IMG/VR virus record: IMGVR_UViG_3300035670_000153
Coordinates: 1 to 64,000 of that record
Direction: 5' to 3' (one strand)
DNA from: a virus
DNA: 64,000 bases
Shown here: positions 5,924 through 60,781 of the stretch, in pieces
Position numbering within the stretch: position 1 is the stretch's first letter
Layout: each line of letters begins with the position of its first letter
The notes under the pieces: model-generated
Databases searched by the model: none
Seen by the model: only the letters and a program-made list of their open reading frames with translations
Told to the model about the DNA's origin: nothing
Program-made: the position numbers and the translations under genes

Positions 5924-7108
5924 TTAATTATTATTATGGTAAAATAAGGTTTTAAATATTTCTTCAAGCATAGGGACTACTATACCTCTACCTGCTCTTT
6001 CATATAATTTACTATCAGCTAATCCTGCATTTTTTGCTTTGTAAAAATCTTCATCTGTATATCCCATTAACCTCCAACACTCTAATGGAGTTAATTTTCT
6101 GACTTTAAAATCACATAATATTTTTGGCTGTCTATTCCCTCCATTCATAGAGTTTAATGTAGGTGCAATACCTTTATTGCTGTATATTCTTGTATTACTA
6201 TGTATTTTATTATCTAAATTTCCAACTTGTATTAATTGTCTTCTCCTTTTTATAATAAAATTATCTACACTAGTTCCTTTATGATAATTAGCATCAATGC
6301 AATAACTAATATCTTGATGTGGTAAATTTTCTGTTATATGTTCATATCTATGTTTTGATATATAATATTTATTATCTACATTTAATTCTAATATATCTTG
6401 TAAGTTTATATCTATATTTTTACTTATTGGCATTTTAAAATCAATATCATGAGGTTTTAATATACTAATCATGATTACTCTTTCTCTGTTTTGTGGTACT
6501 CCAAAATTTTTACCATTTAAAACTTTCCAATAAGAATCATAACCTAAATCATCTAAAACTTTTATCCATTCTTTAAAATGTTCAATATGTCTTTTCCCTA
6601 CTAAGTTCTTAACATTCTCCATCATTAAATACTTTGGTTTCTTTTGAGTTATTATTCTTTCACATTCCCATAATAATGATGATTGAGTGCCACTATTTTT
6701 TTCTAATCCTGCTTGTTTACCTGCTACTGAAATTGATTTACAAGGATAAGAGTATGTAAATAAATCAAAACATGGTAATTCTTTTTCATTAATTAATCTT
6801 ATATCCCCATAATTTTTACTTCTTTTATGTGCTAAATATAATTTAATTAATTCTTTTTCACTCCTAGGTATTTCTGATTTACTAGTAGAAAAGTTATATG
6901 CAATATTTTTAGATTTTATTTCATTCAACATTTCTTCTTTAGATGGTATTGCAATATATTCTTCTTTATTATTATGTATAGCATCATATCCTATTAATGC
7001 ATTTTTATCAACTTCACTTATTCCAACAATTTCAAAATCAATTCCAATATTTCTAAGTGCCATTTCTTGACTTCCTACACCTGTAAAAGCTGTAAAAACT
7101 TTTAACAA
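5924..7108 (-). CDS. DNA cytosine-C5 methyltransferase with Arg in place of the conserved motif X Asn; candidate carboxymethyltransferase
   Basis: 394 aa from a TTG at 7108 (SD AGAGGTGA); a GTG at 7117 is too close to that SD. Motif I is FTAFTGVGSQE, the catalytic motif IV is YSYPCKSIS (nucleophile Cys123), ENV is MMENVKN and motif VIII is PQNRERV. The variable region (about 225-330) holds the target recognition domain. In motif X, family members read G-N-S-V/I, but here it is A-G-R-G-I (Arg374). That Asn lies near the methyl-donor pocket; in M.MpeI, changing it to Lys/Arg lets the enzyme use carboxy-SAM and make 5-carboxymethylcytosine. The adjacent upstream gene is a carboxy-SAM synthase homologue, so a natural carboxymethyltransferase is a strong inference. 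Ordinary methylation remains possible. Confidence 0.9.
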   Translation of the reverse strand: MLKVFTAFTGVGSQEMALRNIGIDFEIVGISEVDKNALIGYDAIHNNKEEYIAIPSKEEMLNEIKSKNIAYNFSTSKSEIPRSEKELIKLYLAHKRSKNYGDIRLINEKELPCFDLFTYSYPCKSISVAGKQAGLEKNSGTQSSLLWECERIITQKKPKYLMMENVKNLVGKRHIEHFKEWIKVLDDLGYDSYWKVLNGKNFGVPQNRERVIMISILKPHDIDFKMPISKNIDINLQDILELNVDNKYYISKHRYEHITENLPHQDISYCIDANYHKGTSVDNFIIKRRRQLIQVGNLDNKIHSNTRIYSNKGIAPTLNSMNGGNRQPKILCDFKVRKLTPLECWRLMGYTDEDFYKAKNAGLADSKLYERAGRGIVVPMLEEIFKTLFYHNNN

Positions 7109-7127
7109 ATAAATCACCTCTTTTTAT

Positions 7128-7856
7128 TTATTTTATAGCCATATATCCAACAAAATTCATCCATCTCCAAAAAATATCAATCTTTTTAAAACCTGATTGT
7201 TTTAGTAGGTCGATATTCCAATTAGATGTAACTGGAACTAAAACCCCTTCTAAAGATAATTTTTTCCTATATATTTCTTCTTGTGAATACCCATTTGATT
7301 TTTTAAATTCATAATATTCACTTATCATTAATTCGTTTAATTCATCACAATCTCCTAACACTTTTTCAACAAATAAAAACATGCCACCTTCAAACATCGA
7401 ATTATATATATTTTGTATTATTTTTTGTCTATATTCAATAGGTGTAAATTGTAAAGTCAATATAGATGTTATTAATTGATAATTATCTTTTGGGAAATCT
7501 GTTCTTAAATCTAAATTCAATATTTTTATTGAATTTAGATAATCATACTTATTAAGTCTTTCTAATGCTTTTTTTATCATTGGCTCACTTATATCTATGC
7601 CAGTATATCTTGCATTTTTCCCAAATTCTTTTACGAATCTCTCTAATGATAGACCATTTGAACATCCCAAATCTAATATAGATTTATTATTATTTTTTTT
7701 TAATGAACTACATCCTAATTTAAATATAAGATTTCTCATTTCAGTATACTGTGGAATAGAACGAATTAACATATCTTCAAATAATATAGCTACATTTTCA
7801 TTAAATTCCCATTTCCCATTTTTATTTTCAAAATTTAAATTGTTATTGTTATTCAA
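7128..7856 (-). CDS. cmoA-like: CmoA-like carboxy-S-adenosylmethionine synthase
   Basis: 242 aa from a TTG with AAAGGAGG 8 nt upstream. The sequence follows E. coli CmoA along its length: WEFNENVAILFEDMLIRSIP near the start, the SAM site ILDLGCSNG, LTLQFTP-EYRQ, and EFKKSNGYSQEEI near the end. CmoA converts SAM and prephenate to carboxy-SAM, normally used by CmoB on tRNA wobble uridines. No CmoB is seen here, and Gram-positive hosts usually make mo5U through TrmR instead. The gene lies 19 bp upstream of a C5-methyltransferase with an altered donor pocket, so its product probably feeds DNA modification. It could also be a methyltransferase of the same fold. Confidence 0.75.
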   Translation of the reverse strand: MNNNNNLNFENKNGKWEFNENVAILFEDMLIRSIPQYTEMRNLIFKLGCSSLKKNNNKSILDLGCSNGLSLERFVKEFGKNARYTGIDISEPMIKKALERLNKYDYLNSIKILNLDLRTDFPKDNYQLITSILTLQFTPIEYRQKIIQNIYNSMFEGGMFLFVEKVLGDCDELNELMISEYYEFKKSNGYSQEEIYRKKLSLEGVLVPVTSNWNIDLLKQSGFKKIDIFWRWMNFVGYMAIK

Positions 7857-7958: not shown

Positions 7959-9680
7959 TTATTTCCCTAGATTTTTTCTAATTTCAGATAAATTTATTTC
8001 TCTTATAATTTTACCATCTATAAATACATCTGTCAAGACATTATCTGATTTACTATTTGATTCTTCTATTGTTAAGTTATCAATAGCTACTAAATCTCCT
8101 TTTTTATTTCTAACAACAGCTACTCTACCTGTTAAAGACTTTTTAAGTTTATCTGTATCAGTCACTGGGTCTTTGTATATATTGCGTTCTTCCCCATTAA
8201 TAACTACATGTGTTGATTTTAAAGCATACCCAAATGTATCACGGGTATTATATTGGTATGTAAAACTACCTATTCCAAACACCATATTTGTAGATGCAAA
8301 TCCTTTTTCTTTTAATCTACTACATATTATTTCACATCTTTCTAAAGTTATAGCATCACCATATATAGCTCCTATATGTGAATCTAATACCTTATACCCT
8401 TTTTCTGATATTGTTCCACCAAATATATCCCAAAGAATTTCTATTACACCTTTTTCTTCAAGGGTCAAAGTTGTTTCTTCACATGATGCAATAGATACTC
8501 CATCAATATAATAATATTGTTTATCATGTCTATTATATTCAATATCTATTTTTAATCTATAATATTTATCATTAAACTTAAAAATACCAGTATTCTCAGT
8601 ATATCCATGTTCCCCATGTGGAGTTTCATCACTAACTTCTTGTTCTAAAATCGATTTCATATATCTTTTAGCATCATCTAATGTCTTTACATATGTATCA
8701 GTTTCCATATCTACTATTTTAGCAGTTCCACAAATAATATCTTCTGGAATTCCACTATCAGGACGAATAACAACTTTCCCATCTCTTTGTAATATTTTAT
8801 TTTTTAATTTGCTTATTACATCAGTCAATACTTTCCATAAATCCCATGTATCACTTACAATTGATACAATGCCATTTGGGTGAACTTCTGTTATTAATCT
8901 TTTATATGACTCAAATTCATTTTCTCCATATGCACACATAACTGAATGTTCACTTGCTGGAACACTACAAGCAACCAATTCATTCTCAATATTAGCATTA
9001 TAATATTCTTCTAAAAATGATATTGCAGGGATTGTATCAGACCCTACAAAAGACAATAAATGACCTGCTCCACTACTTGATGCTGATTCTAGTGAACCCA
9101 TACCTCTCATGCTAAAATCATGACCTTGGAATGGTACAAATCCTGTATCTCCAATAGTTTCTATTGCATATTTATCCAAAATCTTCTTATATTGTAACGC
9201 AAGTGTAGCTGATGTACTAGGAATCCATAACTGACAAGACATAATTGTTTCAAGATAATTAGTTACCCAAAAAAATTCAGGTATTGTATTTTCAATAGTC
9301 AACATGGGTACTCTTAACGGAACTAATGTACCTTCTTCTATTGCTTTAATTTTTATAGGTAAATATCCTAATTTATGTAATGATATAATATGAGATGCAT
9401 CTGGCTCATTAACCCCTAATGCGTATTTAATTACTCTATTATATTCTTTAACTACTTCATTTATATCTCTATTAAAAAAATGTTCATTAAAATACTCAAT
9501 AAGATATTGTTTGATAAATGCTTGAAATCCAAATGCTACTACTTTATCTACTCCTTTAACTCTACTACCTCTAGGAGTCCAATTTGAATATACATATTCT
9601 GTACCTTCAGGATATTGTTTCAAATGAGAAACCTTATAAAAATCGCATAGTAATGTTGCTGGATAAATTGTTTTTGACAT
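7959..9680 (-). CDS. nadV: Nicotinamide phosphoribosyltransferase (NAMPT/NadV)
   Basis: 573 aa, above the usual 460-490, with an insertion in the middle. It converts nicotinamide and PRPP to NMN. Family landmarks: LCDFYKVSHLKQYP, SNWTPRGSR, GFQAFIKQY, FQGHDFSMRGMGS, the catalytic-His segment SVPASEHSVM and the PRPP-site RPDSG. Downstream of prs and an HAD phosphatase in one operon, so PRPP supply and NMN synthesis are coordinated. This would restore NAD+ drained by host defences or by the phage's own PARP, and supply its NAD-dependent ligase. No NMN adenylyltransferase was seen in the window, so the host enzyme or a gene outside may finish the path. Confidence 0.93.
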   Translation of the reverse strand: MSKTIYPATLLCDFYKVSHLKQYPEGTEYVYSNWTPRGSRVKGVDKVVAFGFQAFIKQYLIEYFNEHFFNRDINEVVKEYNRVIKYALGVNEPDASHIISLHKLGYLPIKIKAIEEGTLVPLRVPMLTIENTIPEFFWVTNYLETIMSCQLWIPSTSATLALQYKKILDKYAIETIGDTGFVPFQGHDFSMRGMGSLESASSSGAGHLLSFVGSDTIPAISFLEEYYNANIENELVACSVPASEHSVMCAYGENEFESYKRLITEVHPNGIVSIVSDTWDLWKVLTDVISKLKNKILQRDGKVVIRPDSGIPEDIICGTAKIVDMETDTYVKTLDDAKRYMKSILEQEVSDETPHGEHGYTENTGIFKFNDKYYRLKIDIEYNRHDKQYYYIDGVSIASCEETTLTLEEKGVIEILWDIFGGTISEKGYKVLDSHIGAIYGDAITLERCEIICSRLKEKGFASTNMVFGIGSFTYQYNTRDTFGYALKSTHVVINGEERNIYKDPVTDTDKLKKSLTGRVAVVRNKKGDLVAIDNLTIEESNSKSDNVLTDVFIDGKIIREINLSEIRKNLGK

Positions 9681-9697
9681 AATATTCCTCCTATAAT

Positions 9698-10099
9698 TTA
9701 TAATTTATCTTCCATTATTTTAACTGCGTCCAATAGAACACTATAAGCTGATTTTAAACCTGCTCTATCATCTAATAGTATATTGTAATAAACTTTTTTA
9801 CCTGTAAATTTTACAAAATCCATATTTTCGTTAATTCTATCAAATGGTATTTTATTGTCATATAAATAATCTTTAATTTTCATGTATTCATCTTCTCCAC
9901 AACATGTAAAAACTATAAAATGAGCACCAATATTATCGCATCTTTTTAATAATGCTATGATGTCTTCATATTTACGACCTTGTTTATGAAAATCATATAC
10001 TGTATCATCAAAATCATAAGCTATTATAATTTTACCATATTTTTCCCATTCTTTTACAAGTCTATTTACTTGATTTAATTCGTTTAAATAATAATCCAT
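9698..10099 (-). CDS. HAD-superfamily phosphatase
   Basis: 133 aa. Motif I is IAYDFDDTVYDF (nucleophile and acid Asp), followed by FIVFTCCG (motif II) and LLDDRAG (motif IV). It is short and lacks a cap, like phage 5'-nucleotidase or T4 Pseudomonas-type HAD proteins. Lying between prs and nadV, it might recycle pyrophosphate or nucleotide by-products of NAD+ salvage. SD AGAGG. Confidence 0.75.
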   Translation of the reverse strand: MDYYLNELNQVNRLVKEWEKYGKIIIAYDFDDTVYDFHKQGRKYEDIIALLKRCDNIGAHFIVFTCCGEDEYMKIKDYLYDNKIPFDRINENMDFVKFTGKKVYYNILLDDRAGLKSAYSVLLDAVKIMEDKL

Positions 10100-10108
10100 T
10101 AAATACCT

Positions 10109-10921
10109 CTAATCTAATTTTATTAATTTTTTATGTTCCCAATTATTCAATATGCTATCTGTAGTAAATATTTGAGATATTAAATCAGTTTTTAATAACT
10201 CCCCTTGATATATTGAATTTTCACAATGTGAAACGTACAAATATACATCATTAACACCTTGTTCTTTTAATTTCTCTGCTGACTTATAAAATGTAAATCC
10301 TTTTGAGCATAAATCATCAATAATCAATACATTTTTACCTTTAATATCTTCTGGTACATCTACTAATTCATATTCAATAATATCTCCTGTTTGTAAATCA
10401 CGTTTTTTATTACCATAGAAATATTTGGTGTTATTTGGTAATTTTAAAATTTCACTATACCTTTTACAAGCACCATTATCTGGGTAAAAAACATAATCAA
10501 TATCTTTGATACCAAAAATTGTCTTAATATATCTATTAAAATCTATTTCTACACATCTATCTAATAATGCAATAGATACATTTGAGTGAGGGTCTAATAC
10601 AGTAACTTTATTAAATTCTAATTTATTAATTAATTTACAAAAATATTTTAAAGTAAACATATAACCTTCTATTTTTCTATCCATTCTTGAATACGGTATG
10701 TATCTCATAATTAAATCAATTTTAGGATTGCTGAATGTGTCTTTTAAAAATTCTGTAGCCATAATTAATCTTGTAATATCCCCATCATAACTATATACAA
10801 AATTAATCATAAAATAATTATCTCTTACATTAAGTGCTTTTCGTAATTCATCTGTTTTAAATATTCTTTCGTTATTAGGAAAACAATCTAATCCTATCTC
10901 AACTCCATTTATTGAAACCAT
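10109..10921 (-). CDS. prs: Ribose-phosphate pyrophosphokinase-like protein (PRPP synthase)
   Basis: 270 aa, slightly shorter than cellular Prs (about 315). Landmarks: YIPYSRMDRK (ATP/ribose site; cellular Prs has PYARQDR), LDPHS, and the PRPP loop VLIIDDLCSKGFT. It makes PRPP from ribose 5-phosphate and ATP. It is first in the operon and feeds nadV downstream. SD AGGAGTGATA. Confidence 0.9.
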   Translation of the reverse strand: MVSINGVEIGLDCFPNNERIFKTDELRKALNVRDNYFMINFVYSYDGDITRLIMATEFLKDTFSNPKIDLIMRYIPYSRMDRKIEGYMFTLKYFCKLINKLEFNKVTVLDPHSNVSIALLDRCVEIDFNRYIKTIFGIKDIDYVFYPDNGACKRYSEILKLPNNTKYFYGNKKRDLQTGDIIEYELVDVPEDIKGKNVLIIDDLCSKGFTFYKSAEKLKEQGVNDVYLYVSHCENSIYQGELLKTDLISQIFTTDSILNNWEHKKLIKLD

Positions 10922-18171: not shown

Positions 18172-18978
18172 TTATAATAAACATTCAATGTACAATTTGT
18201 CTTGCGTAAATACAGGTATTTCTTTATCTATAATCCACTTAGAGCGAACTGTATCACCTTTATAATAGTTTCTTTTAATAATACAGCTTCCTCGTTTTTT
18301 ATAAGTTTCTACATCATTAAAATTAATCCCTTTTTCTATAAATAATTTATCTTGTAATTTATCACAAGATAATCCTTGTAATTGTTTGTGACTAAAATTG
18401 GCTTGTGCTAACATTTGGATTGAATTTCTTGTGGCATCTTGTTGTCTCCAAATGAAGTAGTTAGCTACCTCTTCTTTTGGTATAATAAATGCTCTGCTAT
18501 CAAACAATGCAGTTCCTATTTTCTTATAGTAAATATCAGCAAACTTTTTTATTTCAGGATTTATAAACTCGGAGTATTTTTCATCTACTCCTTTATTTTG
18601 ATAATCCCATACATTTAGTCCAAATGATTTGTTAAATCCCATAGTAGCTATACTTGCAGATACGCTTACCATTTTTTGAATATTTTTATTGAACCATGCA
18701 TCAGTCGTAATCGTGTCATCATCGGTAAATAAAAGAGAGATTTCATCTGATTGGACATACGCAATTTTACAGCCTTGTATTCTCTCACATAGCTCTTTAG
18801 CTGTTTCTTGCATTGTATTAATTAAAACTTCATCAAAAGGTTTTTGAAACCCTTTAGTAAAGGTATGGAATGCTTTTCCGTCAATTCTTATAATTACTGG
18901 AATTCTTCTTGTTAAAAATATTCTGCTTATATCTTCATATTTTTTCATTCTATCCCCTAAAGAATCATTTTTATTCAT
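18172..18978 (-). CDS. Thg1-like 3'-5' RNA polymerase (tRNA-His guanylyltransferase family)
   Basis: 268 aa. Family landmarks: MKKYED at the start, PVIIRIDGKAFHTFTKGF (first metal Asp), AYVQSDEISLLF (second metal Asp), and FDSRAF with WRQQDATRNSI. Thg1 and its bacterial/phage relatives (TLPs) add nucleotides in the 3'-5' direction, repairing 5'-truncated tRNAs on their own template. A target in this phage is at hand: the tRNA array at 59285-62276, where several 5' ends must be made by unusual processing. SD AGGAGGTG. First gene of its operon. Confidence 0.9.
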   Translation of the reverse strand: MNKNDSLGDRMKKYEDISRIFLTRRIPVIIRIDGKAFHTFTKGFQKPFDEVLINTMQETAKELCERIQGCKIAYVQSDEISLLFTDDDTITTDAWFNKNIQKMVSVSASIATMGFNKSFGLNVWDYQNKGVDEKYSEFINPEIKKFADIYYKKIGTALFDSRAFIIPKEEVANYFIWRQQDATRNSIQMLAQANFSHKQLQGLSCDKLQDKLFIEKGINFNDVETYKKRGSCIIKRNYYKGDTVRSKWIIDKEIPVFTQDKLYIECLL

Positions 18979-52003: not shown

Positions 52004-53206
52004 TTAAATAATTTCTATTAAATATTTTACAGTACAAGCTTCTTCTTTGTATACAACAATTTCATCTTTTCTTAACATTCCAGTTCCACCATGAGCATGT
52101 AAACAATTTGCTCCTTTACATGCACTTTGCAGTATATTTTGATTGAAATTATAATATTTACTATCAAAACTATAAACATCATATGCTTTTCCATAAGCAG
52201 TCTCCATCAATAACATAAATCCTGTATGTTCAGACCCATGTGACCATCTTGAACCTGATACGCTTGTGTATCCTCTTGATTTATCAAAATCATTAGATAA
52301 ATAAATCCCGCTGCCAAACATCTTACCCGTAATTACTGCATTTGGTCTTAATACAAGACCAGAATTTAAAATACTCCAAACATTTTCTGACCTAGTACCA
52401 TGGAAAAACAAATCTGTTTTTAATATGTTTTCACTTTTTAAGTAATCATTATATTTATTTTGAGTTTTTTTATTTGTAATCTTCCATCCTTGTTTAAATT
52501 TATCTTGCATAGAACCCATTTTTGATTTTATTGCTTTTATATCTTTATCATTTAACTCTTCAAATTCTATTCCTAAAGCTTCTAATATTGTTTGATTTTT
52601 TGTAACAACATCATCATCATTATTGTTGTTATCTTCAATTTTATTTTGTTTTACTTGACCTTCCATAATATCTAGTAAATCTTGTTCTCGATTTATTATA
52701 GATATGTAGTCATCTTTTGATTCTGCTAAATAATCTACTACTTTTTTCATTTTTCTTGGAATAGTTTTAAATAATTGCAACAATACTTCATTGAATTTGT
52801 TACATTCATTTTCATTTCCAAGATTATAAAGTAAAGTCTGAGCTTCATCAACCATTAATTGTGTAACTTTATCAGATGATATGGTATAATTATCTTTTAC
52901 GGTTTGTCTAGCTATTGCTTGTAATCTCTCAACTATTTTTGAAATATTAGGATTATCTAATGATAAATATTCATTTTTCTTTTTTATAATAGGTACTTCT
53001 ATTAATCTTGTCTGGTCAACATATCCCTTTTTTATTTTGCTATTCAAAGTAGAATGCCATTTACCCATTGGATATGTTTTTGATTGATATGATGTATTTC
53101 CTATCCTACCATATTGGACTTCAAATGTAGAACCTAATTCAATCATTTTATAATACTTATTATTATTTGCATCTGCCTCTACCTTAACAAGATAAACTGT
53201 TTTCAT
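52004..53206 (-). CDS. Poly(ADP-ribose) polymerase-like protein with WGR domain
   Basis: 400 aa. Residues about 1-75 form a WGR domain (YKMIELGSTFEVQYGRIG), a helical regulatory-like region follows (about 90-170), and the catalytic domain fills about 250-400. The H-Y-E triad is present: LFHGTRS, GSGIYLSND and KDEIVVY. The WGR-PARP layout matches DNA-break-dependent eukaryotic and bacterial PARPs, so it should consume NAD+ to modify proteins or nucleic acid. First gene of an operon that ends with NAD-dependent ligase; NAD+ salvage genes are elsewhere in the window. Confidence 0.92.
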   Translation of the reverse strand: MKTVYLVKVEADANNNKYYKMIELGSTFEVQYGRIGNTSYQSKTYPMGKWHSTLNSKIKKGYVDQTRLIEVPIIKKKNEYLSLDNPNISKIVERLQAIARQTVKDNYTISSDKVTQLMVDEAQTLLYNLGNENECNKFNEVLLQLFKTIPRKMKKVVDYLAESKDDYISIINREQDLLDIMEGQVKQNKIEDNNNNDDDVVTKNQTILEALGIEFEELNDKDIKAIKSKMGSMQDKFKQGWKITNKKTQNKYNDYLKSENILKTDLFFHGTRSENVWSILNSGLVLRPNAVITGKMFGSGIYLSNDFDKSRGYTSVSGSRWSHGSEHTGFMLLMETAYGKAYDVYSFDSKYYNFNQNILQSACKGANCLHAHGGTGMLRKDEIVVYKEEACTVKYLIEII

Positions 53207-54845: not shown

Positions 54846-56168
54846 TTATTCATCTTGAACGCTTTGTGCTTCTTCAATATCTAATACATCATCGGATTTA
54901 ATTATACCTTCTAAAACCTTAAATGTAAAGTTTTTATTTTTTAATGCAGTAAATTTTTCTCTGTTTTCAATTCTTACCACAATACCTTCTCTGATATGAG
55001 ATTTACCAATTGGGTCTACTCCATCAGTATATTTATTTACTCTTTGCATTAAATCTTCTTGAGTAGTATATATAAATTTTTCAAATACAGGAACATGTTC
55101 AATTCCCATTTGTTCACATCTCATTTGTGTTAATTCTGTAGGATATTCTACTACAATTCCATCTTCATTTGTCATAGTCATTCTATATACAAATACCTTA
55201 TTTTCTCCAACATTACATCTATATGTAAACCTAGTAGTTTCACCATATTGTTTAATAAATTCTTTATCTTTTGTTTTACTATTATTGCATTCAGGCATAA
55301 TTAATTGATTACTTTCTGTATATCCTACAATTTCTCCATAAACTGTCTCTCCTTTATGTAATTTACCTAGGAAAAAATTATGCCATTGTTCTCTGAATTT
55401 ATTTGTCCCATAAAATCCACCATCAAATGTATTCAATATGACTCTTCTTGAACCTGAAACATAATCCCATTCTTGTGTAGATTTAAATTTTACACCTAAA
55501 ATATAAAGCAAATTTAAAATGAATCTAGGTAATTTACTATTCCATTTAGATTGAGTAATTTTAAATGCTCTACTTTCTCTTAAACTTGTTCCATGCATTT
55601 TTAGAGATATAGTACAAATATCACCTTCTTTAAATTTAGCCATATTATAAGCTAATTGTTCAGTGTCTCTGTGTTCTGAAAAATAAGGAAATTTATTTTT
55701 TAAACTTATTTTCTTAGAATTACTTACTTTCATTCCTGTATTTTTTGAACCATTTATATGATTTGTTTGAGGAATATACTTATTACAAATTTCTACCCCA
55801 TTTAGGATTGAAATTGTGTCACCTTCTTTTAAAGTACCAACATCGGTAAAACTATGTAAACTATTGACATTTAACAATAAGCCATCTGATTTTTCACCTC
55901 TTAATTTTACTGATGAAACATGTCTTTTGTTTGGGTCTAAATATCCACCAATTTCATTCCCTTGTTCATCTTTCTTACGCAACAAATTATTTGCCTCACA
56001 AAAACCCATATTTAATCTTCCATCTGTTGGGAAATATACCATCATATCTCCAATTTTTACATCTAATCCAACTATAGTATCATTTCCAAATACTGTTGCT
56101 ACTTGTAATCTATCTGCATTAGAATGTTTTCTTAACTCTTTTATTCTTACAATATATCCACAATACAT
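54846..56168 (-). CDS. RNA ligase of the Rnl5/DraRnl type
   Basis: 440 aa. N-terminal OB-like domain (about 1-130), then the nucleotidyltransferase core: motif I ISLKMHGTSLR (Lys nucleophile), EWDYVSGSRR, VYGEIVGYT (motif III), REGIVVRIE (motif IV) and FTFKVLE (motif V). This order with an N-terminal OB domain is that of Deinococcus DRB0094-like ligases, which seal nicks with a 3'-OH RNA end. Start overlaps the stop of the RlaP gene, so the two are coupled. Likely role: RNA/tRNA repair or joining. Confidence 0.88.
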   Translation of the reverse strand: MYCGYIVRIKELRKHSNADRLQVATVFGNDTIVGLDVKIGDMMVYFPTDGRLNMGFCEANNLLRKKDEQGNEIGGYLDPNKRHVSSVKLRGEKSDGLLLNVNSLHSFTDVGTLKEGDTISILNGVEICNKYIPQTNHINGSKNTGMKVSNSKKISLKNKFPYFSEHRDTEQLAYNMAKFKEGDICTISLKMHGTSLRESRAFKITQSKWNSKLPRFILNLLYILGVKFKSTQEWDYVSGSRRVILNTFDGGFYGTNKFREQWHNFFLGKLHKGETVYGEIVGYTESNQLIMPECNNSKTKDKEFIKQYGETTRFTYRCNVGENKVFVYRMTMTNEDGIVVEYPTELTQMRCEQMGIEHVPVFEKFIYTTQEDLMQRVNKYTDGVDPIGKSHIREGIVVRIENREKFTALKNKNFTFKVLEGIIKSDDVLDIEEAQSVQDE

Positions 56169-57217
56169 TATACAATACCTGCTTTCTTTAATATATTTTT
56201 ATTTATTTCAATTACTAATTCATTTATTTTATTTTCATCTGGTTTTAATGGTAATTCAGTATGTTTAATAGAAAATTTTAAATCTTTTTCTGCTTTATCA
56301 ATCATATTAAAAATTTCTGAATAATCTTTATTATTATCTTTATTAATTACATAATCTCCATTCCTTAATGCCATCATAAACTCATGTTCATGTGCTCTAT
56401 TTGTAATAACTCCTTTACCTTCTAATATTTCTTTCCCCATTCTCATAAGTCTTATAATATGCATTACATGCTTATTTAAATGGATATCATCTTTCTTATT
56501 GTTTCTATGATTAAGAGAATCATAATCTTTAATAACATTTTTCCATTCAGATAATATAGATAATAAATCTCTTAATGGATAATGTTTAAGATTTAAATTT
56601 AAAAATATTTCTTCATCAAAATCTGTTTTGTTTGATTTATCAAGAAATAAGTTAATATCTTTCCCATCAAAGCAATGATAATTACGTTCTATATGTTCTC
56701 TTTGATGATTTATACTGTCTAATATGTGTTTCTCTTTTTCTTTTTGAGGATATGAGTCACGTGCTAAAGCATTTTGTAATCTTCTTAATTGAGCTGTAGC
56801 ATATCCACAAAAGGAATGTATTGCTCTTTGAGATAAAAATAAATTGATATTATCTCTTAATATTTTACCTTCATTACTTAATACAAAAATATCTTCTTCT
56901 CTAGTTCCAAATATTTCTAGTACATTGGGATTGCAATTCAATAAAAGATTAATAATTTGTTTAAAATAATAAATAGTAGTATCTGTTTTAGTTTCTACAA
57001 ATGGCTTATCTGTATTATTCATAGTCAGTAAATCATAATAACTATTATGTGCAACTCCTCTAATATCAATATCACTATTTTCATTATTTAATCCATAAGC
57101 ATATGAACCACCTAATGTAAGTATCATTAAATTATCTTTAAATTTATCTTTTAAAAAATCATAATCATTACTTGTATAAATTGTTTTTTGTATCTTTTTT
57201 GAATAATTATTTCCCAT
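56168..57217 (-). CDS. RlaP-like nucleotidyltransferase (RNA-repair-associated pol-beta family)
   Basis: 349 aa from ATG 57217, 6 nt after GGGGAG; earlier Met codons lie within the upstream gene. The pol-beta motif is LTLGGSYAYGLNNENSDIDIRG, with the paired Asp. NYHCFDGKDIN, HYPLRDLL and KHVMHIIRLMRMGKEIL follow as in the RlaP family, which is linked to RNA ligases. It probably adds nucleotides to RNA ends; this could include CCA or missing bases. Confidence 0.82.
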   Translation of the reverse strand: MGNNYSKKIQKTIYTSNDYDFLKDKFKDNLMILTLGGSYAYGLNNENSDIDIRGVAHNSYYDLLTMNNTDKPFVETKTDTTIYYFKQIINLLLNCNPNVLEIFGTREEDIFVLSNEGKILRDNINLFLSQRAIHSFCGYATAQLRRLQNALARDSYPQKEKEKHILDSINHQREHIERNYHCFDGKDINLFLDKSNKTDFDEEIFLNLNLKHYPLRDLLSILSEWKNVIKDYDSLNHRNNKKDDIHLNKHVMHIIRLMRMGKEILEGKGVITNRAHEHEFMMALRNGDYVINKDNNKDYSEIFNMIDKAEKDLKFSIKHTELPLKPDENKINELVIEINKNILKKAGIV

Positions 57218-57611
57218 ATTCATCTCCCCATATATTTTTAATATTATGTTTCGATTTTTTATCTGCTTTTTTTTCATGGTCTTTTTTTATTTTTTCTATT
57301 TTATTTTGCAGTTTATTATAATTTTTAATAATGAATCCATCTTTTTCTTCTTCATCTAAAAATATAATTTTTTCTAATTGTAATATTTCACCTTCTAAAA
57401 ATCTTGCGTTGATTATAATTCTATTAATTTCCTCTTTTAAAGTTTCAGTTTGTAATATTGAAACTTTGTCCTGTGTTTCTAACATACAATTATATTGTAT
57501 ATTATATTGTCTGCTAGTATCACGTAGTAAAAGACTCAATTCGTTCATTTCATCCATTAAACTTTCAAGCTTTAAATCATTTTCACTTTTTAAAAAATTC
57601 AATATCTTCAT
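57207..57611 (-). CDS. Coiled-coil protein at the head of the RNA repair operon (134 aa)
   Basis: SD AAAGGAGG. Almost fully helical, heptad-like (LESLMDEMNELSLLLRDTSRQ; NKIEKIKKDHEKKADKK), with a basic end. First gene of the operon with RlaP and RNA ligase. Might be an oligomerising scaffold; no domain recognised. Confidence 0.55.
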   Translation of the reverse strand: MKILNFLKSENDLKLESLMDEMNELSLLLRDTSRQYNIQYNCMLETQDKVSILQTETLKEEINRIIINARFLEGEILQLEKIIFLDEEEKDGFIIKNYNKLQNKIEKIKKDHEKKADKKSKHNIKNIWGDEYGK

Positions 57612-57769: not shown

Positions 57770-59245
57770 TTAAAAATAGTAATTTTCTATTTTCTTAACT
57801 AATGTATCAGTTCCATTTTCTGCTAAATGAATAAAATCAAAAATCTTTTCTGACCATCCTGCTATTATATTTGTATGATGTCCTTTAAATTGTTGTGTTC
57901 CATATCCCATTAAATCAACAGCATGAATCCAAACATTATTATTTATTTTATTTCTATATTCATTTGCAATTTTTTGACAAGGTACTTTATTATTATTATA
58001 CCATGATGATACTCTATCCATATCCCATCCTGAATTAATTTCATTATCAGATAATACAATAATTCTATCTACCTGTATATTATTATTAATTAAATATCTG
58101 AATGGTAATGTTATATCTGTTCCTCCACCATCAATTCTCATTCTTTCAGCATTTGATATAATTCCATTTGTGCTTGGCATAGTAACGTTTCTAATATTTG
58201 TATCAAAAGTAACTAATATTGTATCTTCACAAACATAATTACCCATAGACATTAATAGTGTTGCTATTTCTGAACATTTAATTGTACTCTTATTACTTAT
58301 TGCACTCGACATAGAGCCTGATACATCACAAGCAATTAAAGTTTTACCTTTAAGTGTTTGTACGTTTTGAGTACTTAATTTTATAGCTTCTTCTAAAATA
58401 TTATAAACCTTAGATGAACCTAGATTTTCTTGTTGCAATGTTTTATATGCTGAAAAATATCTGAAAGGTAACTGCTTATTGTTAAGAACAGCATCTCTAT
58501 TTGATAAAAAATCGTAAACCATATCAATATTATTAGGATTTGCTTTTATGATGTTTCTTAAATTTCTAAGCATTGCCATATATCCAACTTTTTTACTTGC
58601 TATTAATCCTTCCCATACTTCTTTTGTATTACCTTTTGCAGATAATTCTGTTTCCCAAGTATAAGGTGTTTCTAATTTATCTTCTAATAATCTTTTAAAC
58701 ATATCATTTTGAACTTCTGTTTTTGCTTTAGGATGTGTTAAACAAACTAAATCTTTAAGTTTTATATCTTTACTTTGGCTATTATATTTTTGTAATTGAT
58801 ACTCATTAAATGTAAGTAATCTATCAGCTAATCCCTTTTTAACAGAGTTTGGGATTGGTTTACCATAAGTATTAATTATATATGATAGTATTTCTGTCAT
58901 ATCATCTACTCTTTCAATTACATTGTTAATAGTTTTTCTTGTAAAAGGTTTTCCATTAACATGATTAGCTAACTCTCCAACTAAAACGTGAGATATACTA
59001 CGTAAATGCATTTCTTTTCTTGCAAACAATGCTAAATTAGCAATGAATTCTGGTTCTTTATTTAATACATTACGAATATTTTCAACTATTTCATTTGAAT
59101 TATCACCATAAAACTTTGATTCATTAAATAATGATGTAAGAACTTGTGTAACTAATTTTTCTTTATCAGACATTGTAAAAGCTTTAACACCTGATTTGTT
59201 TTCAGTAATTGAATTATCACTTGCATTTTTATTAAACTTTGACAT
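57770..59245 (-). CDS. Ro60/TROVE-domain RNA-binding protein with vWA domain
   Basis: 491 aa. Residues about 20-290 are the helical TROVE ring (LFARKEMHLRSISHVLVGEL, RYFSAYKTL), and about 300-490 a vWA domain with an intact MIDAS (IACDVSGSMSS, DGGGTDITLPF, VLSDNEI). Ro proteins bind misfolded RNAs in the ring and Y RNAs on the surface, and work with nucleases in RNA quality control. Bacterial Ro genes often lie next to RNA repair genes and Y RNA genes, as here. Transcribed from the promoter at 59413-59441 together with tRNA-Ser(GCT). SD GGAGG. Confidence 0.93.
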   Translation of the reverse strand: MSKFNKNASDNSITENKSGVKAFTMSDKEKLVTQVLTSLFNESKFYGDNSNEIVENIRNVLNKEPEFIANLALFARKEMHLRSISHVLVGELANHVNGKPFTRKTINNVIERVDDMTEILSYIINTYGKPIPNSVKKGLADRLLTFNEYQLQKYNSQSKDIKLKDLVCLTHPKAKTEVQNDMFKRLLEDKLETPYTWETELSAKGNTKEVWEGLIASKKVGYMAMLRNLRNIIKANPNNIDMVYDFLSNRDAVLNNKQLPFRYFSAYKTLQQENLGSSKVYNILEEAIKLSTQNVQTLKGKTLIACDVSGSMSSAISNKSTIKCSEIATLLMSMGNYVCEDTILVTFDTNIRNVTMPSTNGIISNAERMRIDGGGTDITLPFRYLINNNIQVDRIIVLSDNEINSGWDMDRVSSWYNNNKVPCQKIANEYRNKINNNVWIHAVDLMGYGTQQFKGHHTNIIAGWSEKIFDFIHLAENGTDTLVKKIENYYF

Positions 59246-59284: not shown

Positions 59285-59377
59285 TGGCAGGAAGTAAGGG
59301 ATTCGAACCCTTGCATCATAAAAATGACCTAATGCTTTAGCAAAGCATCCTCTTTAGCCATACTTGAGTAACTTCCT
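59285..59377 (-). tRNA. tRNA-Ser(GCT)
   Basis: Acceptor AGGAAGT / ACTTCCT, anticodon stem ATGCT / AGCAT with loop TTGCTAA, long variable arm, T-loop TTCGAAT, CCA encoded. It lies between a promoter and the TROVE gene, so it is probably the 5' part of the Ro transcript. Confidence 0.93.
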
Positions 59378-59412
59378 ATAAATATTGTCTATCTGATTGT
59401 AATCTCAATATA

Positions 59413-59441
59413 ATATTATTATATAACTTTATAGTTGTCAA
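59413..59441 (-). promoter_or_regulatory. Promoter TTGACA-17-TAATAT inside the tRNA array
   Basis: -35 at 59441-59436, -10 at 59418-59413. Lies between the two tRNA-Ser genes and reads into tRNA-Ser(GCT) and the TROVE gene. Confidence 0.82.
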
Positions 59442-59475
59442 TACTTAAATAAAAATAATATTTAATATTAATAAT

Positions 59476-59567
59476 TGGCGGTGAGAGTAGGATTTGAACC
59501 TACGGAGGGCGAAAGCCCCCTCCAGTTTTCAAGACTGGTGCTATAAGCCATACTCTGCCACCCCACC
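59476..59567 (-). tRNA. tRNA-Ser(TGA)
   Basis: Acceptor GGTGGGG / TCTCACC with two G-T pairs, anticodon stem CCAGT / ACTGG with loop CTTGAAA, GC-rich long variable arm, T-loop TTCAAAT, CCA encoded. Confidence 0.93.
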
Positions 59568-59748
59568 GTGATTATGGTCTCTCCCATCGTCACCTTTATA
59601 AAACTATTTCTAGTATTGGACAGTAAAGGTCTTGCCCTATGCAAACGCTAGAATCGCCCCTAGCTCTTAATAATACCTACATCGAGCAAAGGATTCTTCA
59701 ATCATTTTATAATATTGAGTAGTGTAAAGTGATTGGTATTTAGAAAGA
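59568..59748 (-). ncRNA. Candidate structured RNA between tRNA-Tyr and tRNA-Ser(TGA)
   Basis: About 180 nt without a gene, clearly richer in G+C than its surroundings. Hand folding on the minus strand gives AATACC / GGTATT closing a domain with CAATCA / TGATTG, GCTAG-loop-CTAGC, TTGC-ATAGG-GCAA, and ACCTTTA / TAAAGGT holding ACTA-GAAA-TAGT with a GNRA loop. It is flanked by tRNAs and lies upstream of the Ro gene, so a Y-RNA-like partner is one idea; a processing signal is another. No known family recognised. Confidence 0.55.
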
Positions 59749-59832
59749 TGGTGGGTAGAGATAGATTTGAACTATCGTAGCAATTGCAATGGATTTACAG
59801 TCCATCTCCTTTAACCACTCGGACACCTACCC
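59749..59832 (-). tRNA. tRNA-Tyr(GTA)
   Basis: Acceptor GGGTAGG / TCTACCC, anticodon stem ATGGA / TCCAT with loop CTGTAAA, long variable arm, CCA encoded. Confidence 0.93.
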
Positions 59833-59837
59833 ATATT

Positions 59838-59909
59838 TGTGAATAAGAGGACTCGAACCTCTATCTAACAACTTGAATCGTTAACTTTGACCAATTAAGT
59901 TATATTCAC
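59838..59909 (-). tRNA. tRNA of unclear identity with an abnormal anticodon loop
   Basis: Acceptor GTGAATA / TATTCAC, D-stem ACTT / AAGT and T-arm AGAGG / CCTCT are sound, and CCA is not encoded. The anticodon arm does not give 5 bp plus 7 nt: AACGA / TTGTT leaves a 6-nt loop TTCAAG, and TAACG / TGTTA an 8-nt loop. The anticodon could be CAA or TCA (which would read UGA). Either a degenerate gene or a recoding tRNA. Confidence 0.7.
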
Positions 59910-59941
59910 ATAGTTAAAATATCATTTACTTTTATTACTAA

Positions 59942-60015
59942 TGGAGAGTAATATAGGAATTGAACCTATGAATGTGGAGTTGCAGTCCACCACCATACCA
60001 CTTGGTTAATTACTC
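59942..60015 (-). tRNA. tRNA-Cys(GCA)
   Basis: Acceptor GAGTAAT / ATTACTC, anticodon stem GTGGA / TCCAC with loop CTGCAAC, T-loop TTCAATT, CCA encoded. Begins 4 nt after RNA element copy 8. Confidence 0.93.
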
Positions 60016-60019
60016 ATAT

Positions 60020-60153
60020 TTATTAAAAGAAAAACGACATCAGTATTTTTTGTTATCCTGCCATTAGACGAATTCATAAATTATGAATAATAGGACTCGA
60101 ACCTAATATCTACACCTTGGAATGGAGTAACTGATATCTACACTTTTTAATAA
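60020..60153 (-). ncRNA. tRNA-linked RNA element, copy 8 (carries permuted tRNA-Gly)
   Basis: Outer stem TTATTAAAA / TTTTAATAA (9 bp), then GUGUA, 8-bp helix GATATCAG / CTGATGTC, UUACUCC, and GUUUUUC on the 3' side. The outer stem begins at the base right after the CCA of tRNA-Pro. The loop of the 8-bp helix is replaced by a circularly permuted tRNA-Gly gene. Confidence 0.8.
60051..60125 (-). tRNA. Circularly permuted tRNA-Gly(TCC)
   Basis: The 3' half (60125-60082) comes first, then a 3-nt linker, then the 5' half (60078-60051). Joining the outer ends gives a complete tRNA: acceptor TATGAAT / ATTCATA (7/7), D-arm GTCT / GGAT, anticodon stem ACACC / GGTGT (5/5) with loop ATTCCAA, T-loop TTCGAGT. 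The junction falls in the 5' strand of the anticodon stem (ACA joined to CC). CCA not encoded. Confidence 0.85.
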
Positions 60154-60229
60154 TGGTCTACTCATCAGGACTCGAACCTGAAACCTCATCACCCCAAATG
60201 ACGAATTCTACCAATTGAAATATGAGTAG
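60154..60229 (-). tRNA. tRNA-Pro(TGG)
   Basis: Acceptor CTACTCA / TGAGTAG, anticodon stem CGTCA / TGATG with loop TTTGGGG, T-loop TTCGAGT, CCA encoded. Its CCA touches RNA element copy 8. Confidence 0.9.
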
Positions 60230-60239
60230 ATATTTTTTT

Positions 60240-60332
60240 GTTTTAGAGAAAATCAATATTTGTATTTTTATTTTATCACGCTAGAAACGTGACTATTATG
60301 TAAGAAGTAACAAATATTTACACTTCTAAAAC
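60240..60332 (-). ncRNA. tRNA-linked RNA element, copy 7
   Basis: Outer stem GTTTTAGA / TCTAAAAC, GUGUA, helix AATATTTG / CAAATATT, UUACUUC and GAUUUUC. The interior of about 40 nt holds a hairpin TCACG-TTTCTAG-CGTGA that looks like an anticodon arm (TCT) but no further tRNA parts. Confidence 0.75.
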
Positions 60333-60375
60333 AAATTGTTATTAATAATTAATCTCTTTATCATAAATATATTTT

Positions 60376-60469
60376 ATTATTTAGAGAAAATCTATATTTG
60401 TATGTAAACCCTCGTCTGAGAGTATCTTATATCGGAAAGAAGTAACAAATATATACACTTCTAAATAAT
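60376..60469 (-). ncRNA. tRNA-linked RNA element, copy 6
   Basis: Outer stem ATTATTTAGA / TCTAAATAAT, GUGUA, helix TATATTTG / CAAATATA, UUACUUC and GAUUUUC. Interior of about 37 nt with a small hairpin CTC-TCAGAC-GAG; no tRNA. Confidence 0.75.
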
Positions 60470-60489
60470 AAATATACTTACTTCAATAA

Positions 60490-60529
60490 AAATTGTAAGG
60501 TTTAATTTAATAGAATTAAACGGCAATTT
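60490..60529 (-). terminator. Terminator-like hairpin within the tRNA array
   Basis: Minus-strand stems AAATTG / CAATTT and GTTTAATT / AATTAAAC followed by TTTTTATTG, between element copies 5 and 6. Could be a processing hairpin instead. Confidence 0.4.
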
Positions 60530-60544
60530 AATCCTAAATAATTT

Positions 60545-60618
60545 TACTTGAGAAAATCAAATAAAGTATTTATTTTCACCAAAAGAAAGAAGTAACTTTA
60601 TTTTACACTGCAAGTATA
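60545..60618 (-). ncRNA. tRNA-linked RNA element, copy 5
   Basis: Outer stem TACTTG / CAAGTA, GUGUA, helix AAATAAAG / CTTTATTT, UUACUUC and GAUUUUC. Interior of 22 nt with hairpin TTTC-TTTTGGT-GAAA. It starts three bases after the CCA of tRNA-Gln. Confidence 0.75.
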
Positions 60619-60619
60619 A

Positions 60620-60695
60620 TGGCTGGAAGACAAGGATTCGAACCTCGATTATCTGAGTCAAAGTCAGATGTCATAACCAATTAGACCATCTTCCA
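60620..60695 (-). tRNA. tRNA-Gln(TTG)
   Basis: Acceptor TGGAAGA / TCTTCCA, anticodon stem TCTGA / TCAGA with loop CTTTGAC, T-loop TTCGAAT, CCA encoded. Confidence 0.93.
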
Positions 60696-60781
60696 TTATT
60701 GGAATATATTTTGTAAAAGAATTAAATCCATTTACGCATATATTATAAGTATAATTCTTTATAAAAATAATTTTAATTTTA

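Follow-up and report, generated by a model that had tools for sequence, protein, structure and literature searches.

Natural formation of 5-carboxymethylcytosine by CmoA and CmoX has been described in Synechococcus phage S-B43 (Yang et al., Nat Commun, December 2025; PMC12783734), whose virion DNA yielded the glycine amide alone, the glycine being attached by CmoY (PMC12783734). In the crystal of SpCmoX, the CmoX of that phage (PDB 8YF3), Arg350 contacts the carboxylate of carboxy-S-adenosylmethionine (Cx-SAM) (PMC12783734), and an engineered N374K variant of the C5-cytosine methyltransferase (MTase) M.MpeI accepts the same donor (PMC12783734). Residues Q82 (motif IV) and N304 (motif X) of M.HhaI are the positions altered to admit bulkier analogues of S-adenosylmethionine (SAM) (PMC10666283), while in Escherichia coli CmoA it is Arg199 that forms a salt bridge with the Cx-SAM carboxylate (PMC3663124). 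Here we analyzed a 64,000-nucleotide stretch of viral DNA (“the window”, part of the 72,172-bp IMG/VR virus record IMGVR_UViG_3300035670_000153), in which a CmoA homologue is encoded beside a C5-MTase homologue with an altered donor pocket. Comparison of sequence, fold and gene neighborhood indicates that the pair very probably constitutes a cassette for Cx-SAM-dependent carboxymethylation of DNA cytosine, with a pocket apparently gained independently of CmoX. The sequence-only reading of this locus had proposed a natural counterpart of the engineered reaction; it appears right about the kind of reaction but not about its novelty, as natural 5-carboxymethylcytosine chemistry was already known from S-B43. 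The novel elements are a pocket that seems to have originated a second time, independently, in M.MpeI-like enzymes, together with a two-residue signature and a promiscuous pairing with CmoA. The features concerned are as follows:

5924-7108, minus strand: C5-cytosine MTase homologue, predicted DNA cytosine carboxymethyltransferase (TTG start, 394 amino acids)
7128-7856, minus strand: CmoA homologue, predicted Cx-SAM synthase (242 amino acids, TTG start behind AGGAGG)
7109-7127, minus strand: intergenic stretch between cmoA and the MTase gene, with an AGGTGA ribosome-binding site (19 bp; from the sequence)
6737-6742, minus strand: catalytic Cys (6740-6742) and, directly after it, Lys (6737-6739) in TYSYPCKS, the position of M.HhaI Q82 and M.MpeI Q136
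5987-5989, minus strand: donor-pocket Arg of motif X, codon AGA (Arg374 from the TTG start, Arg377 from the GTG start)
7260-7262, minus strand: Lys codon AAA at the position of E. coli CmoA Arg199 (by alignment)

The predicted MTase matched PF00145 (E = 7.6e-66) and has the fold as well as motifs I, IV (PC), VI (ENV), VIII and X in order. Its nearest solved structure was M.MpeI (4dkj), both by sequence (E = 5e-47) and by fold (Z = 37.2 over 360 residues). SpCmoX matched by sequence only at E = 3.8e-5 and lay outside the 50 listed fold matches, an absence that carries no meaning. Where the family has YKQAGNSIVV in motif X, the window enzyme has YERAGRGIVV, and the Arg aligns exactly with M.MpeI N374 (M.HhaI N304, SpCmoX Arg350). 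A second change in the pocket, overlooked by the sequence-only reading, is a Lys in place of the family Gln directly after the catalytic Cys: 66 of 68 readable phage relatives with Asn in motif X (Asn type) have PCQ at this point, versus PCK in all three MTases with Arg (Arg type) that are described below. The published-type CmoX compared here likewise lack the Gln, with S, K, A or C instead. The two altered positions are those changed in M.HhaI Q82A/N304A for mTAG labeling (PMC10666283), but there side chains were shortened for bulky neutral groups, whereas in the window enzyme two cations take their place. It also differs from M.MpeI N374K in being natural, in using Arg rather than Lys, in the extra Lys for Gln136 and in having its own predicted supply of Cx-SAM.

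To establish how far this pocket is linked to cmoA, a degenerate DNA pattern for YxxAG[R/S]xIVV was scanned over 2.9 million viral contigs. Besides the window, the Arg form was found in only two contigs (L038 and L002), with MTases 65-68% identical to that of the window, while the Asn form gave at least 120 matches and the Lys form none. In the survey for neighboring cmoA genes that the sequence-only reading had suggested, cmoA adjoined the MTase in 3/3 Arg-type loci (window, L002 and L038), against 0 of ~118 Asn-type loci (among the matches listed, within the available sequence) and none of 30 complete records of the Asn type, of up to 345 kb each. In L038, cmoA directly overlaps the MTase gene; in L002 the order is cmoA, a CmoY-like Asn_synthase ligase and MTase, the same cmoA-cmoY-cmoX order as in S-B43. 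Scanning the viral contigs with two MTase sequences returned L002 alone, and a scan with a single CmoA sequence gave no match. In genome contigs the Arg-form motif was matched 14 times, never in a C5-MTase, hence there is no chromosomal or named-host case.

The 242-residue CmoA homologue found its best PDB sequence matches among CmoA structures (1im8, 4gek and 4iwn; E = 4e-29 to 2e-24), its top NCBIfam model in TIGR00740 (CmoA; E = 8e-47) and a further match in phrog_4752 (E = 4e-69), while the top structural match of its AlphaFold model (pLDDT 87) was E. coli CmoA 4gek (E = 3.5e-22). Together with the PF00145 and fold matches of the MTase, these results bear out the earlier description of a CmoA-like gene beside a C5-MTase with an altered motif X. 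Compared with E. coli CmoA (4gek/4iwn), the protein retains the fold and nearly all cofactor-binding residues (Y39, D62, G64, S66, D89, D117, F137, E164 and K198 are conserved in the alignment), but it shares only 28-29% identity, has Lys for Arg199, lacks a CmoB partner and has a DNA MTase as its neighbor. The claim that CmoB is missing held across the whole 72,172-bp record, and no CmoB (PF08003) was found in the records of L038, L002 or S-B43 either.

Alignment at E. coli positions 199 and 203 divided CmoA proteins into an R199/E203 and an X199/R203 subtype; between the two, the Arg that binds the carboxylate looks as though it had been shifted by one helical turn. The window protein (Lys199, Glu203) and that of L038 are of the E. 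coli R199/E203 type, whereas L002 carries the X199/R203 subtype common to Staphylococcus phages and to the active CmoA of S-B43 (SpCmoA), in which Glu stands at 199 and Arg at 203, one helical turn further on. The CmoA partners of the three Arg-type MTases represent two or more distinct subtypes. The closest relative of the window CmoA, with which it groups (~54% identity), is that of L189, which lies beside a different MTase lineage. Such exchange of partners with function kept argues for a real functional link between CmoA and MTase. In L189 itself (5962-7714), the C5-MTase gene that cmoA overlaps encodes TPVCK in motif IV and CSGVP in motif X and represents another lineage that is linked to CmoA but has no Arg in motif X. 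A further lineage breaking the Arg rule occurs in Staphylococcus phages vB-SscS-F1 (L027, 5980-8498) and PhiSepi-HH3 (L029, 5983-7682), where cmoA adjoins or lies near C5-MTases whose motif X reads VGGVI, one residue shorter and lacking Arg; in vB-SscS-F1 a CmoY-like gene stands between the two. We rejected the converse generalization, by which a C5-MTase partner would accompany every CmoA: at 66 of the 80 nearest CmoA loci there was none within the available sequence, and all 12 whole records tested for CmoA loci near that of the window lacked a C5-MTase. At such loci (L207, 3991-5505, with cmoA at 5971-6690; L225, 3957-5474) a ~505-residue protein is encoded upstream of cmoA instead. Its N-terminus is ParB-like, and its C-terminal part, which is unannotated, contains the Rossmann-MTase-like motif LDFGAGHLTETF; this protein is a candidate user of Cx-SAM.

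The locus resembles that of S-B43 in its arrangement, with cmoA beside an enzyme of C5-MTase fold, an Arg in motif X, no Gln after the catalytic Cys and no CmoB. It differs in having SYPC rather than SPPC, in belonging to another clade, in the lack of CmoY from the contig and in its probable Bacillota host. The 5,615 published CmoX were picked by their SPPC motif (PMC12783734), which is absent from all three Arg-type MTases (TYSYPC in the window and L038, TYSFPC in L002). Of the features of the CmoX family, the window MTase shares the Arg equivalent to R350 and the association with cmoA, but neither SPPC nor a place beside SpCmoX in the phylogeny. A quick-search tree of 59 MTases resolved the Arg type as a small supported clade nested within the Asn type, alongside MTases without CmoA, and SPPC-bearing CmoX formed a separate clade. 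Forcing both into a single clade lowered the log-likelihood by 41 and was rejected by the approximately unbiased (AU) test, although P = 0.024 is a moderate value and long branches are involved. Because of the nested position, the rejection of a joint clade and the absence of SPPC, the window enzyme is best described as CmoX-like in its predicted working but outside the family as defined, its likeness being one of convergence; the carboxymethyltransferase pocket apparently evolved separately in this lineage, out of an M.MpeI-like phage MTase of the Asn type.

The reading frames of cmoA and the MTase gene are both intact, with good ribosome-binding sites and a full set of catalytic motifs, and the two are probably co-transcribed. 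The MTase frame remains open up to a GTG at 7117 (5924-7117, minus strand, 397 amino acids), but this codon falls within the AGGTGA that precedes the TTG at 7108; since it sits inside the ribosome-binding site of that TTG, the TTG is the likelier start. The gap of 19 bp and the numbering as Arg374 in the sequence-only reading hold from the TTG start and not from the GTG (Arg377). Taking the observed genes, residues, linkage and phylogeny, we infer donor use, product and biological role as follows. CmoA would convert SAM and prephenate to Cx-SAM, and the MTase would use its catalytic Cys to form the customary covalent adduct with cytosine, with Cx-SAM as donor in place of SAM, the donor carboxylate being bound by Arg374, probably with help from the Lys after the Cys. 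5-Carboxymethylcytosine would thereby be set at a short target in the phage DNA, where it would most likely protect that DNA from host nucleases. CpG depletion in the window (observed/expected 0.40; GpC 1.08) was considered as a hint of target specificity and dropped, because AT-rich genomes vary in CpG anyway.

Several points weigh against this reading. The TIGR00740 score of the CmoA homologue (159.9 bits) is below the curated cutoff of 193.3, for which reason we retain the label “CmoA homologue” rather than certified CmoA; such a score is expected for a divergent phage protein, though it is no proof. Position 199 is Arg in 80/80 of the nearest viral CmoA proteins and Lys in that of the window. 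We regard this as a caution and not a refutation, because Lys preserves the charge and SpCmoA synthesizes Cx-SAM rapidly despite having Glu199/Arg203 and no Arg199; the window protein is a predicted Cx-SAM synthase. Naive probabilities of the cmoA linkage (3e-6 against the ~118 loci; 2e-4 against the 30 whole records) overstate its strength, because the three Arg-type MTases form one clade and are not independent events. Finally, the contig is a fragment, so genes that were not found may lie outside it.

The substitution at position 199 also gives rise to an alternative of decay or altered function: the Lys199 CmoA may make Cx-SAM poorly, or the MTase may have switched to a different charged analogue of SAM or become inactive. 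It draws on the carboxylate-binding role of Arg199 in E. coli (PMC3663124) and on the uniformity of the viral relatives. We consider it improbable, as both frames, their ribosome-binding sites and all catalytic motifs are preserved, Lys199 retains the charge (and the engineered N374K enzyme demonstrates that Lys can serve Cx-SAM use in an MTase), and SpCmoA functions without Arg199. A marginally weaker case can be made for CmoA serving wobble cmo5U (5-carboxymethoxyuridine) in phage or host tRNAs via a host CmoB, with the MTase an ordinary 5-methylcytosine enzyme. Annotation labels phage CmoA genes tRNA methyltransferases, and two tRNAs of the window, tRNA-Ser(tga) and tRNA-Pro(tgg), have cmo5U-class anticodons. 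However, this would require CmoB from the host, as the virus record has none, and in Bacillota, the probable hosts, 5-methoxyuridine and not cmo5U is the major form (PMC10516636); the Arg/Lys donor pocket and the exclusive linkage to cmoA would also be left unexplained. The earlier proposal that Cx-SAM is made for DNA and not tRNA is strongly supported by comparison, through the two pocket changes, that exclusive linkage, the varied cmoA lineages and the missing CmoB.

A more serious competitor concerns the final product and not the transfer: 5-carboxymethylcytosine could be an intermediate, with an amide or other ligase that is unrecognized or located outside the contig capping its carboxylate, as CmoY does with glycine in S-B43. 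The CmoY-like Asn_synthase gene of L002 lies between cmoA and an MTase 65-67% identical to that of the window, only the glycine amide was recovered from S-B43 virions, and the window phage encodes a TET-associated glycosyltransferase (TAGT, PF20691; 19152-20483, minus strand). On the other side, no CmoY homologue or Asn_synthase domain was detected in the 72 kb of the window virus or the 59 kb of L038, and TAGT enzymes are linked to hydroxylated bases (a search for TET/JBP matched nothing, but its control was silent and the search is uninformative). Capping is therefore possible but rather doubtful. Free 5-carboxymethylcytosine as end product is possible because no CmoY-like ligase occurs within the (incomplete) 72 kb. 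The fuller proposition, that DNA cytosine carboxymethyltransferases evolved at least twice, that the M.MpeI-like lineage forms its pocket with two cations (the motif X Arg and the Lys behind the catalytic Cys) and that phages lacking CmoY, like the present one, keep free anionic 5-carboxymethylcytosine as the final base, is somewhat more plausible than capping but tentative.

If Cx-SAM-dependent carboxymethylation by this cassette is correct, the switch from N374 to a cation, familiar from an engineered enzyme, would have occurred naturally in a second lineage, one that itself has the M.MpeI-like scaffold, and the residues of motif X and after the catalytic Cys would form a general signature of Cx-SAM use. 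Published counts based on SPPC would then miss enzymes, a new-lineage enzyme would be available for putting chemical handles into DNA, and carboxymethyl DNA would reach phages of probable Gram-positive hosts. With respect to the host, the closest DNA polymerases are those of Geobacillus, Psychrobacillus, Clostridioides and Lactococcus phages, and the endolysin bears an SLH domain. Bacillota-phage polymerases and this domain together indicate a Gram-positive host, which is probably a member of the Bacillota.

The virus contig has a G+C content of ~25% and carries most genes on the minus strand. Immediately upstream of cmoA (7959-10921, minus strand) are NAD salvage genes (NAMPT-like and phosphoribosyl pyrophosphate synthetase), and the phage also encodes a PARP that combines a WGR with a PARP catalytic domain (52004-53206, minus strand). 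A Ro60-like TROVE/vWA protein (57770-59245, minus strand) adjoins a tRNA array (59285-62276), and the same phage encodes Thg1 (18172-18978), RlaP (56168-57277) and an RNA ligase (54846-56168), which together with the Ro60-like protein suggests an RNA-repair set.
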